A stretch of 34,823 bases of DNA, taken from assembly GCA_944376715.1 (NCBI GenBank), contig CALWDO010000032.1, forward strand, positions 1 through 34,823, in the 5' to 3' direction. Numbering within the stretch: the stretch's first letter is position 1; the number at the start of each line of letters is the position of its first letter. Below, piece after piece: positions 21,280 through 28,141 of the stretch. The stretch is from an uncultured Lachnoclostridium sp. GTDB taxonomy: Bacteria > Bacillota > Clostridia > Lachnospirales > Lachnospiraceae. Under the pieces are notes generated by a model. The model saw only the letters and a list, made by a program, of their open reading frames with translations, had not been told where the DNA came from and did no database searches. The translations under genes were made by a program, and so were the position numbers.

Positions 21280-21283
21280 CACA

Positions 21284-21368
21284 TGCGGAAGAAGGGACTT
21301 GAACCCTCACGAGCGTAACGCTCACAAGAACCTGAATCTTGCTCGTCTGCCAATTCCGACACTTCCGC
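21284..21368 (-). tRNA. tRNA-Leu (anticodon CAG), copy 1
   Basis: The 85-nt class II tRNA has acceptor arms GCGGAAG/CTTCCGC with discriminator A, the D-loop AATTGGCAGAC, an anticodon stem CAAGA/TCTTG around TTCAGGT (CAG at 34-36), a long variable arm GAGCGTTACGCTC and the TTCAAGT T-loop. No CCA is encoded. The sequence is identical to the tRNA at 24606. Confidence 0.97.
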
Positions 21369-21407
21369 AAACCATATGAATTTTTATACAGAGTCCATAT
21401 CCTCTGA

Positions 21408-21491
21408 TGCGGAAGATGGGACTTGAACCCACACGGTGTGACCACCACAAGATCCTTAGTCTTGCTCGTCTGCCAATTCCGACACTTCCGC
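21408..21491 (-). tRNA. tRNA-Leu (anticodon AAG)
   Basis: The 84-nt class II tRNA shares acceptor and D-arm sequence with its Leu(CAG) neighbour. Its anticodon loop is CTAAGGA between CAAGA and TCTTG, giving AAG at 34-36. A34 in a bacterial leucine tRNA is uncommon and suggests editing to inosine by TadA. It lies 39 bases upstream of tRNA-Leu(CAG) in the same transcript. Confidence 0.95.
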
Positions 21492-21610: not shown

Positions 21611-24313
21611 TCACAGCCATTCCCCATATCTGTGAATATACACTTTCTTCATAATCGTCGTGACCGCCATATATCCTGCCACGATAACCGCCAGCCACAC
21701 AAAATATACGGGCGGAAGGGCCGTCAGTCCCAACCCCCGGCTCAGCGGCGTAAACGGAATCAGCGTCACGATTCCTATGCCGGCCAGCGACAGCAGCGTC
21801 ACCGGAAGAGACGCCCGGCTCTGTACAAACGGAATCTTCGCCGTACGCACCATATGAATGACCAGGGTCTGGCTCCACATGGATTCCACAAACCATCCTG
21901 TCTGGAATAAAGCCTCGTACAGTTCCCGGCCCGCGGGATCCATTATGGCAGAATACAGCTGTCCTCCGGTAAATGCAGGGCAGATCACAAAGTACATCAG
22001 CAGATAGGTAATAATATCAAATACCGAGCTTACAGGCCCTATCCACAGCATAAAGCGCCCGATCCCGGAAGCGTCCCATTTACGGGGCACCTTCAGATAG
22101 TCTTCATCCACATGGTCCCAGGAAATAGCCGTGCATGAAATATCATAGACCAGGTTCAGCAGAATCAGATGCAGGGACGCCATGGGCAGGAATGGAAGGA
22201 ACGCGCTCGCCGCCAGCACGGAAAACATATTTCCGAAGTTGGACGACGCCGTCATCTTGATGTATTTAATCATATTGGCGTAGGTTTTTCTCCCTTCCGT
22301 CACACCCTGTTCCAGCACCATCAGGTCTTTCTCCAGAAGCACTACCGAAGCAGATTCTTTGGCGATATCCACGGCGGTATCTACGGAGATTCCCACGTCA
22401 GACGCTTTCATGGCTTCCGCGTCGTTGATGCCGTCTCCCATATAGCCCACGCTGTGCCCGTTTTCTCTCAATACCCGGACAATGCGCGCCTTCTGCGACG
22501 GCGACAGTTTGGCAAAGACGGTCACCTTCTCCGCCTGCGCCTCCAGTTCCCGGTCGCTGAGTCTTTCCAGATCGCTGCCCAGAAGAATTCTCCCCGCATC
22601 CAGCCCCACCTGGGCGCAGATGGCTCCGGTCACCTTTTCATTGTCTCCCGTCAGCACCTTAATTGCCACGCCGTATTCCTGCAGGGCCTGAACCGCCGCA
22701 TGCGTGGTCTCTTTCGGCGGATCCAGAAATGCCAGAAATCCGATCAGTACCATATTCGCTTCATCCTGCACTGAGAACTGCCCTATGGGAGAAGGATTTG
22801 TCTTCTGGGCCACCGCTATGACTCTCATCCCCTTCTCATTCAGCTCGTCGGATTTTCCAAGCACCAGCCGACGCACCTGATCGGTCAGCGGGCGGATCCC
22901 GCCTCCGCACTCCGCAAAGGCGCAGCATTTCAGCATCTCTTCCACCGCGCCTTTGGTGACCAGCTGGGTCTTTCCCTCCGTGTCTTTGACCACTACGCTC
23001 ATCCTGCGGCGTTCAAAGTCAAAGGGGATCTCATCCACCTTTGTATACTTTTGGATCAGCTGCTCTGCTCCCAGTTCTTCCTGTCTGGAGATCACCGCCA
23101 CATCGATGAGATTCTTCAGCCCTGTCTGAAAATAGCTGTTCAGGAACGCATGTCTCAGAACCCGGTCGTCCTCTTCCCCGTCCACATTCAGGTGATATTC
23201 CAGCACTACCTTGTCCTGTGTCAGCGTCCCCGTCTTATCGGTGCAGAGGATATCTATGGAACCGAGATTCTGGATAGAATTCAGGTTCTTGATCACTACT
23301 TTCTTTTTGCTCATGGCCAGAGCGCCTTTGGCAAGAGACGTGGTGACGATCATGGGCAGCATCTCCGGCGTCAGGCCCACGGCGACGGAGATGGCAAACA
23401 GCACCGCCTGCATCCAGTCGCCCTTCGTGAATCCATTGACAAAAAGCACAACCGGAACCATGACCAGCATGAAACGGATCAGGATCCAGGAAACGGCGTT
23501 GACGCCCTTTTCAAACGTAGTCTTCGGGGCTTTCTCATTCAGATTTTTCGCCATGGCGCCGATCACGGTGTCATTCCCCACAGCGATCACGATGGCCCTC
23601 GCGCTGCCGCTGATGACATTGCTCCCCATGAACGCCAGATTCTCCATATCCGTCAATGACTTTCTCTGCGTGACAGGAGATCCGTATTTTTCCACAGGCT
23701 CGCTTTCTCCCGTGAGAGCCGACTGGCTGATAAACAGGTCTTTCGCGTCAAGGATCCTTAAGTCCGCCGGAATCATGTCTCCTGCGCAGAGAAAGACCAG
23801 ATCCCCTGCCGCGATCTCCTCCATGGGAATCTCCGCGCTGACGCCGTCTCTCAGGACGCAGGCCGTCGTATGTATCATACCGCTAAGTCTGGCCGCCACA
23901 TTTCCGCTGCGCGTCTCCTGCACAAAACGCAGGATCCCGGAGATCAGAATCATAACCGTGATAATACTCACTGTAATGTAGTTCTTCTCGCCTGCCTCCG
24001 CGAAAATGATATCTGTAAAAACCGATATACCCGCCAGCGCCATCAGGACCAGGGAAAACGGATTGACAAAGGAATCGAACAGCCGCTTTGCCGCCGGCTC
24101 CTTTTTCCCATAGGTCAGGATATTTTCTCCATACTCCTCTCTCTTTTCCTCCGCCTTTTCCGGCGAAAGCCCACGGGCCGGCGTACCATACTTTTTCAGC
24201 ACTTCCGGCTCCTGGTGCGCGGAAGCCCAGTACAGTCTTTCGTGGGTCTCATTGATTCTGCCGCTTTCTGTTTTTGCCGCTTTCCTGTTAAATAACACAT
24301 TCCATCTCTTCAT
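21611..24313 (-). CDS. mgtA: Magnesium-translocating P-type ATPase (MgtA/MgtB-like, P3B)
   Basis: The 900-residue protein has the full P-type ATPase set: the actuator loop [12 protein letters not shown], the phosphorylation motif [12 protein letters not shown], the nucleotide-binding KGAVEEML region, the hinge TGDNEKV and [18 protein letters not shown]. Gene length, the N-terminal [23 protein letters not shown] block and the tail of membrane helices (about 690-890) fit the MgtA/MgtB magnesium importers rather than calcium pumps. The ATG at 24313 has AAGGAGG 9 bases upstream. The same frame stays open to 24502, but that part is the structured leader RNA and has no ribosome binding site. A terminator/antiterminator leader precedes the gene. 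Confidence 0.93.
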
Positions 24314-24565
24314 CTTTCTGTACCTCCTTAAGCTTTGAATCAACTCCGCTGTCACTGGAAAATACAGTCCATGAAGGCTTTTTCCCCGAAAAAAGGGCGC
24401 AAAAAAGCCATCGTCCGCAAAACTGTTCACAAAACGATGGCTGTAAAAACATACTTTGAAAACCGCTACAGGAAAGCGCGCCTGTACCGGCATAGAATCC
24501 ATCGTTTTGTTATGTACCAGTTACGACTTCGACTGCCATCCACAGCGCGTCACCTGCCTTTCAAA
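24314..24565 (-). ncRNA. Structured mgtA leader with terminator and competing antiterminator
   Basis: On the minus strand a terminator (AGCCATCGT 24406-24414 with ACGATGGCT 24434-24442, then a T-run at 24401-24405) stands about 90 bases before mgtA. The upstream segment at 24499-24510 is a perfect 12-base complement of 24429-24440, the terminator's 5' arm, so the two folds exclude each other. Between them lies another hairpin (24463-24490, 9 of 10 pairs). A further 50 bases of GC-rich sequence precede these. By eye it does not match the M-box core. This is probably a cation-responsive attenuator. Confidence 0.7.
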
Positions 24566-24567
24566 AA

Positions 24568-24599
24568 AATATAATCCCGGAGACATCTGCCTCCGGGAC
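24568..24599 (-). terminator. Terminator after tRNA-Leu copy 2
   Basis: On the minus strand TCCCGGAG and CTCCGGGA form a stem, followed by TTATATTTTTTT. It separates the tRNA from the mgtA leader. Because no convincing promoter is seen between it and mgtA, read-through from the tRNA promoter may supply mgtA. Confidence 0.8.
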
Positions 24600-24605
24600 C
24601 AACCA

Positions 24606-24690
24606 TGCGGAAGAAGGGACTTGAACCCTCACGAGCGTAACGCTCACAAGAACCTGAATCTTGCTCGTCTGCCAATTCCGACACTTCCGC
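24606..24690 (-). tRNA. tRNA-Leu (anticodon CAG), copy 2
   Basis: It is identical over all 85 bases to the tRNA at 21284-21368 and in the same orientation, so the two copies bracket mgtA and tRNA-Leu(AAG) as direct repeats. The anticodon loop TTCAGGT gives CAG. Confidence 0.97.
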
Positions 24691-24702
24691 ATCACGAATG
24701 CT

Positions 24703-24731
24703 ATAATACCTCATTTCTCACAGAATGTCAA
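24703..24731 (-). promoter_or_regulatory. Promoter of tRNA-Leu copy 2
   Basis: On the minus strand TTGACA (24726-24731), 17 bases and TATTAT (24703-24708) form a strong promoter 12 bases before the tRNA. Confidence 0.9.
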
Positions 24732-24758
24732 ACATTTTTATAAAAATATTAAAAAAAA

Positions 24759-24826
24759 TACATTTAGCAGATTCTCTACATACTATATTTCAAAGTATTA
24801 TTTAATAAGACTAAATGTACTATAAT
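24759..24826 (+). promoter_or_regulatory. Promoter and dyad of the XRE regulator gene
   Basis: TATAAT (24821-24826) with a weak TTATTT 17 bases before it lies 18 bases upstream of the ATG. TACATTTAG (24759-24767) and its exact inverse CTAAATGTA (24811-24819) flank the -35 region. The second copy touches the -10, so the XRE protein may repress itself there. Confidence 0.55.
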
Positions 24827-24844
24827 GGATAGGGAGGTACTTAC

Positions 24845-25165
24845 ATGGATTATCGGGCTTTAGGAAAGAGAATTCGGGAAGAACGTCTGAGATTAAATCT
24901 CACCCAGGAAAAACTGGCGGAAGAGGTTGGAGTCTCTACTGCTTATATTGGACAGATCGAGAGAGGAGAACGCAGCCTGACTTTGGACAAGCTGATCAAG
25001 GTGGTAAACCGCCTTGGCGTCACCGTTGATTTTCTTCTGGCTGATTACGTCGTTGCCACCGACGACAACAGCATCAACATTCTGATTCAGCTGATGCATG
25101 ACCGTACGGCAGAGGAAAAGACGCTGGCCATCAATCTGCTCAAAGTCCTGTTCGCGAACAAATAA
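24845..25165 (+). CDS. XRE-family transcriptional regulator
   Basis: The 106-residue protein has a classic helix-turn-helix at residues about 6-62: LGKRIREERLRLNLTQEKLAEEVGVSTAYIGQIERGERSLTLDKLIKVVNRLGV. A helical tail (about 75-105) may serve dimerisation. GGGAGG lies 7 bases before the ATG. The next gene, a sugar-phosphate kinase, starts 5 bases after its stop without its own clear ribosome binding site, so the two are translationally coupled and the regulator probably controls this pair. Confidence 0.92.
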   Translation: MDYRALGKRIREERLRLNLTQEKLAEEVGVSTAYIGQIERGERSLTLDKLIKVVNRLGVTVDFLLADYVVATDDNSINILIQLMHDRTAEEKTLAINLLKVLFANK

Positions 25166-26129: not shown

Positions 26130-27071
26130 TCAGAAGTACACCAGTTCCTCTTCCGGTTTCTGATCGCTCTTGATATTCGTAGAATGAAGGACGACGCCCG
26201 TTTCTCCGCCGTATTCCTCCCGCTCTTCCACGGTCACTTTCGCCGTCACTGTGATCCACTGCCTGGATTTCAGACGGTCCACATAGAAAGATTTGCAGAG
26301 AAATCCGATAAAAGCGGTATCGTCCGCACAACAGGTCATAGCCATGCGTCCCGGCACAAAATATCCCTTCGGCAGATTCTTGCCCACATATACCATTCCC
26401 TTGAAACGCACGGTCTTCCCGTCGTATTTCTCCGGATGGTCCATGGCGTCGATATACCAGATGCCGTAATCGATATCGGAGATATCAATGATATCCGCAT
26501 TCAGGTCAAAGGGCATCTCCTCTTCAAATTCCAGCTGGGAGCCGTCCTCTTTTTCAAAGACGATCTGCGCTTTCGGGTTCACCGCGCGCATGTTTCTCTT
26601 GTAGCTGGCCGCCGGCGTGTCGTCCGTACTCCGGTTGAAGATGATCAGGTCAGAATCCTTCGCCATCTCCATGAAAAGAGATTTCATATTCTTCAGGTAC
26701 ACATCGAAGGTGGACGCGTCCACAGTCGTGATCACCTGCGCCACAAACCATCCTTTGGGCATATACATATCCCGCAGATAGTCCATGCCCCACATACAGT
26801 TGTATTCCAGAATAATCTGGGAAGGCTTATATTTCTTCTGGCATTCTGTCAGGAACTTTTCGTTGAGCTCGCTTTTATCTTCCAGCATCACCAGAGTCGC
26901 GTTGTGCGCTTTCAGCGTCTCCTCGTCATACTCCTCTATGCCTTCCTCGCAGGCTATGACCAGGTTGCGCTCTCCGCCGGAGAAGTATTCATCTTCCAGC
27001 GTTTCCAGGATAAACCTGGTCTTTCCGCTCTCCAGAAAACCGTGTACTACAAATACAGGTATTTTCGCCAT
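26130..27071 (-). CDS. P-loop GTPase (CobW-like) fused to a TIGR03943-like domain
   Basis: The 313-residue protein starts with a CobW/COG0523-type P-loop, HGFLESGKTRF (residues 10-20), and keeps a later IIFNRSTDD that may serve base recognition, but it lacks the CxCC metal motif of true CobW proteins. From about residue 215 the sequence changes: YDGKTVRFKGMVYVGKNLPKGYFVPGRMAMTCCADDTAFIGFLCKS resembles the C-terminal domain of the TIGR03943 (YcgQ) family, which is linked to metal handling with YcgR permeases. It starts 11 bases after the upstream CobW GTPase gene stops, so the two form one operon. A role in zinc or other metal delivery is inferred. Confidence 0.75.
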   Translation of the reverse strand: MAKIPVFVVHGFLESGKTRFILETLEDEYFSGGERNLVIACEEGIEEYDEETLKAHNATLVMLEDKSELNEKFLTECQKKYKPSQIILEYNCMWGMDYLRDMYMPKGWFVAQVITTVDASTFDVYLKNMKSLFMEMAKDSDLIIFNRSTDDTPAASYKRNMRAVNPKAQIVFEKEDGSQLEFEEEMPFDLNADIIDISDIDYGIWYIDAMDHPEKYDGKTVRFKGMVYVGKNLPKGYFVPGRMAMTCCADDTAFIGFLCKSFYVDRLKSRQWITVTAKVTVEEREEYGGETGVVLHSTNIKSDQKPEEELVYF

Positions 27072-27082
27072 ATGCCCACCTC

Positions 27083-28141
27083 TTAAGCCAGTTCAAATAC
27101 TTTGGTCAGTTCTTCATCGTCCAGATGGGACCCGATCACGCAGAGACGTCCTGTATAATCTGCCGCTCCATGGCGGATCTCGAACTCTTCCGGAACCATG
27201 TCAAAATGCAGCCAGCTGCCGTCCGTGCAGGGAACGATCCCCTTGGCGCGCAGCACAATACCGCAGTCATCGTCCTCGGAGAGCTTCTTCAGGATCGCGC
27301 GCAGCTGCTCTTCGGAATATTTATGCGGCGTCTCTTTACCCCAGCTGGTAAATACTTCATCCGCATGATGGTGATGATGGTCGTGGTCATGGTGATGATC
27401 ATGATCATGGTCGTGGTCATGATCGTGATGGTGATCATGGTCGTGATCGTGATCATGATGATGCTCGTGGTCGTGGTCATGGCAGCCGCAGCCGCATTCC
27501 TCGTCATGGTCATGCTCCGCTTCCAGGTCTTCTTTCATCAGCAGATCCTGATGTTCCATAGCCGCCATGATCTGCTCGCCCTTCAACTCGTCCCAGGGCG
27601 TCGTAATGATCGTTGCAGTCGGGTTCTTTTCCCTGAGCATATCGACGCAGGCTTCTACTTTTTCATCGGACATCTTCTGTGTACGGCTGATCACGATGGT
27701 GCCCGCATGTTCCACCTGATTGTTGAAGAACTCTCCAAAATTCTTCATATACATCCGGCATTTCTGGCCGTCTACCACCGTCACGGAGCTGTTCAGTTCC
27801 ACCGGCTCATGGGCGGCTACGCCCTGGACCGCTCTAGTCACATCGGACAGCTTGCCCACTCCGGAGGGCTCGATCAGGATACGGTCCGGCGCATAGGTCT
27901 CGATCACTTCTTTCAGCGCCGTGCCGAAATCTCCCACCAGGGAGCAGCAAATACAGCCGGAATTCATCTCCGTGATCTGTACCCCGGATTCTTTCAGGAA
28001 ACCGCCGTCGATGCCGATCTCGCCGAACTCATTCTCGATCAGGACGACTTTTTCGCCGGCAAATACCTCTTTCAGCAATTTTTTAATCAACGTTGTCTTT
28101 CCGGCTCCCAGGAAACCGGAGATAATCTCGATTTTTGTCAT
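27083..28141 (-). CDS. CobW/COG0523 GTPase metallochaperone with His-rich loop
   Basis: The 352-residue GTPase has the P-loop GFLGAGKTT (9-17), the Glu-rich switch IENEFGEIGID (35-45), the metal motif CICC (63-66) and EPSGVG (91-96). The base-recognition motif reads SRTQ rather than NKxD. Residues about 210-259 are almost only His and Asp with a CGCGC cluster, a metal-binding store, followed by the CobW C-terminal domain. COG0523 proteins deliver zinc, cobalt or nickel to client enzymes using GTP. GAAGGAAG lies before the ATG. The fused partner GTPase follows in the same operon, and an inverted repeat at 28169-28192 may be its operator. Confidence 0.92.
   Translation of the reverse strand: MTKIEIISGFLGAGKTTLIKKLLKEVFAGEKVVLIENEFGEIGIDGGFLKESGVQITEMNSGCICCSLVGDFGTALKEVIETYAPDRILIEPSGVGKLSDVTRAVQGVAAHEPVELNSSVTVVDGQKCRMYMKNFGEFFNNQVEHAGTIVISRTQKMSDEKVEACVDMLREKNPTATIITTPWDELKGEQIMAAMEHQDLLMKEDLEAEHDHDEECGCGCHDHDHEHHHDHDHDHDHHHDHDHDHDHDHHHDHDHHHHHADEVFTSWGKETPHKYSEEQLRAILKKLSEDDDCGIVLRAKGIVPCTDGSWLHFDMVPEEFEIRHGAADYTGRLCVIGSHLDDEELTKVFELA

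Follow-up and report, generated by a model that had tools for sequence, protein, structure and literature searches.

A candidate translated attenuator with alternative folds in the mgtA leader of an uncultured Lachnoclostridium sp.

Ribosome-based magnesium sensing has been described for enterobacterial leader open reading frames (ORFs) such as mgtL and mgtQ. According to the available part of PMC11282234, low Mg2+ causes ribosomes to drop off in early acidic codons of MgtL, at an EPDP motif, upstream of enterobacterial mgtA, and transcription then continues. In the MgtQ leader, which precedes Salmonella mgtB, ribosomes are made unstable by the residues Asp2 and Glu5, which tips a choice among the alternative stems 1:2, 2:3 and 3:4 towards 2:3 (PMC8092293, available part). 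In the magnesium leader of Mycobacterium tuberculosis, a conserved small ORF lies downstream of an M-box that governs its translation, and termination is Rho-dependent (PMC12810186, available part). To the extent that this part describes it, the M. tuberculosis leader shows that M-boxes and upstream ORFs can be combined and that their wiring differs. Among the titles and first lines of abstracts of the open-access papers searched, no leader ORF with an intrinsic terminator was found before mgtA in Bacillota, and the available part of PMC6429828 mentions neither mgt nor magnesium.

The leader analysed here precedes mgtA on a 34,823-nt stretch of DNA from an uncultured Lachnoclostridium sp. (GCA_944376715.1, contig CALWDO010000032.1), hereafter the window. 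An earlier note on this DNA had suggested that it may be an unlisted riboswitch or ion-sensing attenuator. The reading as an ion-sensing aptamer is probably wrong, as the folds centre on a short ORF, uORF1, with frame-0 coding-type similarity; we think it likely that the leader is a ribosome-controlled transcription attenuator working like MgtL and MgtQ, and not an aptamer. As with MgtL, a short ORF lies upstream of mgtA. In contrast to MgtL, which combines Rho-dependent termination with the EPDP motif, the window leader has an intrinsic terminator, a different peptide and an additional helix (P1), and the leaders of its relatives sit behind an M-box. Because the EPDP motif is absent from the window peptide, uORF1 is not filed as a member of MgtL. 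As far as the available description of MgtQ goes, both leaders have alternative stems and an acidic second residue, which is all that the two peptides share; MgtQ acts on mgtB translation, whereas the window leader is proposed to act on transcription termination. To judge from the available part of the M. tuberculosis account, the window leader differs from that one in that the M-box is missing and the switch to its own intrinsic terminator lies across uORF1.

In attenuators of the trp and his type, a leader ORF overlaps an antiterminator and an intrinsic terminator, and a helix restores termination when the ORF is not translated. The window leader has several hallmarks of such an attenuator, namely an ORF with a ribosome-binding site that overlaps the switch, a conserved and mutually exclusive pair of antiterminator and intrinsic terminator, and a helix that would restore termination without translation. 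It differs in that no run of control codons was seen in uORF1, in that the gene under control encodes an ion pump, and in that P1 and the antiterminator cross in topology.

The mgtA locus and the elements of its leader

On the minus strand, a promoter-like match is followed by tRNA-Leu(CAG), a terminator with a 13-bp stem, the leader and mgtA. The gene downstream of the leader (21611..24313, minus strand, ATG start at 24313) encodes a Mg2+-importing P-type ATPase of 900 aa and was correctly named mgtA in the earlier note (TIGR01524 match, 1166 bits, profile search); its Shine-Dalgarno sequence is AAGGAGGT (24329-24322, minus strand). Directly upstream of the leader, cmscan places tRNA-Leu(CAG) (24605..24691, minus strand), which is followed by its own terminator and T-run (24563..24601, minus strand, stem 24601-24572, pattern scan). 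This tRNA gene and its terminator, absent from the earlier note, sit where relatives carry an M-box. The sole promoter-like match on the minus strand in 24300-24900, TTGACA-17-TATTAT (24703..24731, pattern scan), would serve tRNA-Leu and possibly mgtA. The mgtA gene lies between two directly repeated tRNA-Leu(CAG) genes (21283-21369 and 24605-24691), which are 92% alike over 119 nt including flanks, an arrangement also present in the nearest relative, G001; a third tRNA-Leu, with anticodon AAG, lies at 21408-21491. Elsewhere in the window, a putative CobW-type GTPase gene with a long His/Asp-rich stretch (27083-28141, minus strand) adjoins a second related-looking gene (26130-27071), both named by eye.

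uORF1 (24466..24543, minus strand) has 25 codons and a TAG stop, starts with GTG and was recognised by reading the sequence and by coding-type similarity. Its Shine-Dalgarno sequence AAGGCAGGTG (24551..24560, minus strand) lies 7 nt before the start codon, and by eye this spacing is 7-8 nt in relatives too. Together they span the switch, and neither appears in the earlier note. Asp2 is the only acidic residue of the window peptide. The leader most likely harbours, on this reading of the sequence, a small hidden gene, uORF1, which is putatively translated.

The intrinsic terminator that the earlier note had placed at 24401-24442 is present (T2, 24401..24442, minus strand, T-run 24406-24401); its stem AGCCATCG...CGATGGCT (24442-24406, minus strand) has a dG of -17.0. 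A simple pattern scan for terminators listed the tRNA terminator and missed T2, the stem of which has a bulge. A second stretch, GCGCCC-TTTTTT, follows T2 at 24400-24389 (minus strand), as it does in L003, L005, L006 and L011. The antiterminator 5' strand ACAAAACGATGG (24499..24510, minus strand) coincides with uORF1 codons 12-15, and the strand CCATCGTTTTGT (24429..24440, minus strand) is both the antiterminator 3' strand and the T2 5' arm; both assignments draw on shuffles, covariation and folds. The perfect 12-base complement reported earlier holds at 12/12 positions (24510-24499 with 24440-24429), and the duplex comes to -18.3 kcal/mol, a value that 0/200 mononucleotide-shuffled ORF segments attained (their mean was -10.2). 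P1 joins the spacer between the Shine-Dalgarno sequence and the start codon (24544..24550, of which 24544-24549 pair) to a loop segment in the 3' part of uORF1 (24476..24482, of which 24477-24482 pair), both on the minus strand; 24549-24545 pair with 24481-24477, with a U.G pair at 24544/24482. P1 (ACGCGC/GCGCGC) is thus the pairing between a CGCGC loop and an upstream ACGCGC that the note had suggested, and it is real. Around the uORF1 stop codon lies the proposed hairpin (24463..24490, minus strand), with a TACAGG/CCTGTA stem within 24490-24463. The 287-nt leader as a whole folds at z -4.2, equalled by 0/200 shuffles.

At E<=10, the leader matched neither the M-box (RF00380), NiCo or yybP-ykoY nor any other of the 4227 families of Rfam 15, so it is unlisted, as the note had supposed. 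At gathering scores, cmscan found two tRNAs in the whole window; within 24250-24900 at E<=10 it returned a third tRNA and three matches with E 1.5-4.5, far under their cut-offs. The M-box model scored 97.5 bits in G001 and 95.8 bits at C12 in the organism's own genome, the latter before a frame that by eye resembles mgtE. With these positive controls found, the absence of any M-box match in 24250-24900 at E<=10 agrees with the earlier failure to see an M-box core, and a variant or shortened M-box in the leader, suspected by eye, was rejected.

Relatives of the leader and the missing upstream segment

MgtA loci were drawn from the best 80 of 582 genome contigs and from genus, family, order and class samples, in which 4/17, 32/299, 41/392 and 19/391 genomes, respectively, had an MgtA match (E-value limits differed among samples). 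After orientation and removal of duplicates and very short sequences, 143/158 upstream regions were kept, and in many of these we recognised a leader of this type. We picked 31 uORF1 anchors by eye and tested the 23 leaders with a clear T2; L119, L124, L104, L066, L097, L121, L122 and L024, which had no convincing pair of T2 and antiterminator, were dropped before counting, while the weak leaders L009, L014, L016, L028 and L040 were retained.

Among homologous mgtA leaders, covariation is clear for both T2 and the antiterminator. In an alignment of 10 leaders (A1), cells with double changes were counted against 500 shuffles: the antiterminator had 93.3% of cells paired and 10 double-change cells (4.1 in shuffles, 0/500), and T2 had 94.5% paired and 13 double-change cells (4.7 in shuffles, 0/500). 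For P1, 78.6% of cells were paired (0/500), with 8 double-change cells against 3.8 in shuffles (6/500), while pairs with double changes and further pair types stayed at shuffle level (93/500 and 251/500); when the P1 partner was slid by +2 columns, double-change cells rose to 9, yet pairing fell from 78.6% to 60%. The hairpin at 24463-24490 was 81.5% paired in A1, no better than shuffles, and was rejected as a conserved element; pairing is present there, with covariation no higher than in shuffles.

We also compared each leader's own two strands with strands swapped in from different leaders, using 21 non-redundant leaders (L021 and L085 were excluded as near-duplicates) divided into nine window-like ones (group A) and 12 divergent ones (group B), none of the latter being in A1. 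The antiterminator averaged -16.31 kcal/mol matched versus -13.46 swapped (0/20000 permutations; group A 153/20000, group B 2/20000). P1 stood out in the pooled set (4/20000) and in group A (122/20000), two control stretches being flat, and was unsupported in the 12 leaders of group B alone (3147/20000). Measured against its own shuffles, the antiterminator beat 95% of them in 16/23 leaders; those of L010 and L013 were reached by about 6% of shuffles, and those of the five weak leaders lay amid them (26-73 of 200, 13-37%). The mutually exclusive folds proposed in the earlier note are therefore confirmed, and the alternative stems are kept in homologs. That note had named a match to a known riboswitch, or a lack of conservation of these stems, as what would speak against it: no such match was found, and the stems are conserved, P1 in the window's own subgroup only. 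This alternative-fold mgtA leader is outside Rfam and conserved in homologs.

In frame 0, the similarity among uORF1s exceeded that of a stop-free null matched for nucleotide differences (z 6.0 over codons 2-9 and 5.3 over complete ORFs), compared with z 2.1 and 1.5 in frame 1 and -2.2 and -3.3 in frame 2; these pooled values are built on overlapping leader pairs (22 leaders and 316 ordered pairs within identity limits for codons 2-9; seven leaders and 42 ordered pairs, with one codon removed from two leaders, for whole ORFs). Three independent pairs taken singly gave 153, 155 and 139 of 1000 against the null. Codon 2 encodes Asp or Glu in 18/22 leaders, Tyr in 3/22 and Ser in 1/22. In codons 3-8 of these 22 leaders, serine was encoded 38 times by AGY and once by TCN among the codons listed (at most 12 per position), and CGA AGT recurs; this preference could reflect a codon-specific or an RNA-level constraint. 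Eight leader peptides, including that of the window, gave zero NCBIfam matches at E<=10, and the sole Pfam match at this limit, to a peptide other than the window's, scored 11.9 bits, below its cut-off of 23.9. Known leader-peptide families in Pfam and NCBIfam were thus rejected as the identity of uORF1.

In most relatives, uORF1 is not the only element before mgtA. An M-box scoring above its gathering threshold lies upstream in 18 of the 20 uORF1-type loci scanned (20 of the 23; the M-box of L018, one of the 18, is truncated by the contig end), the two without being L020, whose contig starts nearby, and L032. uORF1/T2 is therefore usually a second gate behind an M-box, from whose expression platform it is possibly derived, since both use AACGATGG-like strands. 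In G001, whose MgtA is 91% identical to that of the window, a canonical M-box lies upstream of the leader, and tRNA-Leu is followed by a promoter (by eye), the M-box, the M-box terminator, uORF1, T2 and mgtA. The window and G001 align on either side of 24572/24573, and 241 nt (L162 7026-7266), which in G001 comprise the promoter, the M-box and a terminator stem, have no counterpart in the window. Because CGGG is common to both edges (by eye), a deletion between the two terminators would be the simplest account, with an assembly error as a possible alternative. With M-box and promoter missing, uORF1/T2 would be the remaining control in the window, and mgtA would have to be transcribed by way of the tRNA-Leu unit; behind the strong tRNA terminator, the leader may be weakly transcribed or decaying.

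Candidate mechanism and alternative explanations

The helices, their covariation, the coding-type similarity, the order of elements and the missing segment can be read from the sequences themselves; we infer translation of uORF1, the logic of read-through, a role of Mg2+ as signal and a true deletion behind the missing segment. RNA polymerase would make the uORF1 start region, then codons 12-15, then the 3' part of uORF1 with the P1 partner, and finally T2. If no ribosome is present, P1 would shut the start region and trap the antiterminator strand, acting as an anti-antiterminator, and T2 would form and leave mgtA off. A ribosome passing through would cover codons 12-15 while T2 is made, with the same outcome. 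If instead a ribosome stalls on the first codons or drops off there, P1 would be open and codons 12-15 free, and these could pair with the T2 5' arm before the T2 3' arm exists, giving read-through and turning mgtA on. A ribosome that keeps P1 open and codons 12-15 free would stand on the N-terminal codons of uORF1. The signal would be low Mg2+, with ribosomes destabilised early in Met-Asp/Glu leader ORFs as described for mgtL and mgtQ; judged from gene context, the neighbouring M-box and the acidic second residue, Mg2+ has about an even chance, or a little better, of being the signal. In relatives, uORF1/T2 would form a second gate after the M-box and its terminator.

Folds were predicted along the growing transcript. 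With the RNA end at 24460-24435, the predicted probability of P1 is 0.87-0.92; at 24430 the antiterminator is at 0.99 and P1 below 0.01; an end at 24410 leaves the antiterminator at 0.88; and from 24408 onward T2 is at 0.97-0.99 together with P1 at 0.92. The unforced fold of the leader also closes the uORF1 Shine-Dalgarno sequence. When the start and first codons are covered (24558-24527), P1 is predicted at 0 and the antiterminator at 0.98 for an end at 24410 (0.88 uncovered), and in full-length RNA T2 is at 0.82 versus 0.16 for the antiterminator. Covering 24552-24518 gives a predicted antiterminator of 0.99 at 24410 and, at full length, T2 at 0.91 versus 0.07. T2 alone is predicted to form when codons 12-15 are covered (24522-24490), and covering the uORF1 stop region lets the antiterminator form before T2 finally wins (0.96). 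In all cases tested, covered or uncovered, these predictions end with T2, and an early ribosome does no more than reduce its lead. As the full-length RNA prefers T2 throughout, read-through would need the early-formed antiterminator to last until the polymerase has passed.

Since the folds take in start, coding and stop positions of an ORF with frame-0 coding-type similarity, the ribosome is the likelier sensor. An ion-sensing RNA that needs no translation, in which high Mg2+ stabilises P1 so that the antiterminator strand is trapped and T2 forms, would switch in a direction that fits Mg2+ homeostasis, and the conservation of P1 in the window's subgroup and its company with T2 in predicted folds are consistent with it. 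Such an RNA would need neither a coding signal in frame 0 nor a conserved context around the start, it matches nothing in Rfam, and P1 is unsupported in divergent relatives that retain the antiterminator; we consider it improbable. Equally improbable in our estimate is a leader-peptide attenuator that senses not Mg2+ but an amino acid, the charging of its tRNA or a polyamine. The window peptide is Arg-rich, AGY codons supply nearly all serines at positions 3-8, and a published leader that responds to arginine precedes a polyamine gene (PMC6386406, available part), but there is no run of a single amino acid, the peptides differ among relatives while all strong hits of the leader model R1 precede mgtA, and the usual position behind an M-box points to Mg2+.

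The remaining alternative concerns the window more than its relatives, for which it is compatible with the attenuator reading: having lost M-box and promoter, the leader would hardly be transcribed here, and its structure would be a decaying relic, inherited and not used. The missing 241-nt segment and the tRNA terminator in front argue for this, whereas mgtA retains an uninterrupted frame of 900 aa and P1, the antiterminator and T2 are all intact in the window. We regard it as unlikely, if less so than the two preceding alternatives, and continue to favour a ribosome-controlled attenuator.

Leader ORFs across mgtA loci

The model R1, built from alignment A1, had strong hits in 3/397 family genomes (G000, G001 and G217), each before mgtA, and five weak hits (E 4e-4 to 0.01), about as many as expected by chance. 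In 392 order genomes the window was the only strong match, with three weak ones (E 2e-4 to 8e-4) against roughly 0.4 expected by chance, these E-values being rough. On 96 loci, all of mgtA type except L001, R1 gave 26 matches at E<=1; these include the window and 13 further members of the 23 leaders that were outside the training set, and L014 (one of the 13) and L028 each had a second, weaker match. The uORF1/T2 element is mgtA-linked but patchy.

Short leader ORFs are more widespread. Among the 131 mgtA upstream regions of at least 700 nt, 73 contain a short ORF with a Shine-Dalgarno sequence and the start M[DE]-x(1-3)-[GS], compared with two on the reverse strand and 8.2 in dinucleotide shuffles; as the pattern was picked after viewing the leaders and the loci are related, it is this contrast, and not a p-value, that counts. 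A Met-Asp/Glu short ORF lies within 260 nt of mgtA in 62/131 leaders, and a crude M-box pattern matches 56/131 of the upstream regions. In L005, L006, L011, L013, L026, L037 and others, a second short leader ORF (MDxGSS...) adjoins mgtA at <=260 nt, and some second ORFs carry PDPDGR or PKGRS. The window leader has uORF1 only, with no second Met-Asp/Glu ORF next to mgtA.

We tentatively suggest, at somewhat less than even confidence, that Clostridia-type mgtA leaders stack up to three Mg2+ gates on one transcript: an M-box with its terminator, the uORF1 attenuator with its anti-antiterminator, and a second Met-Asp/Glu ORF by mgtA. If this is true, a translated intrinsic-terminator attenuator behind an M-box in gut Clostridia would combine RNA and ribosome sensing on one leader, and many uncatalogued short leader ORFs would be added (73/131 of the mgtA leaders sampled). 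The window would then be a deletion of natural origin in which the middle gate stands alone, and the ribosome as a Mg2+ sensor would be a general, convergent solution and no enterobacterial peculiarity.
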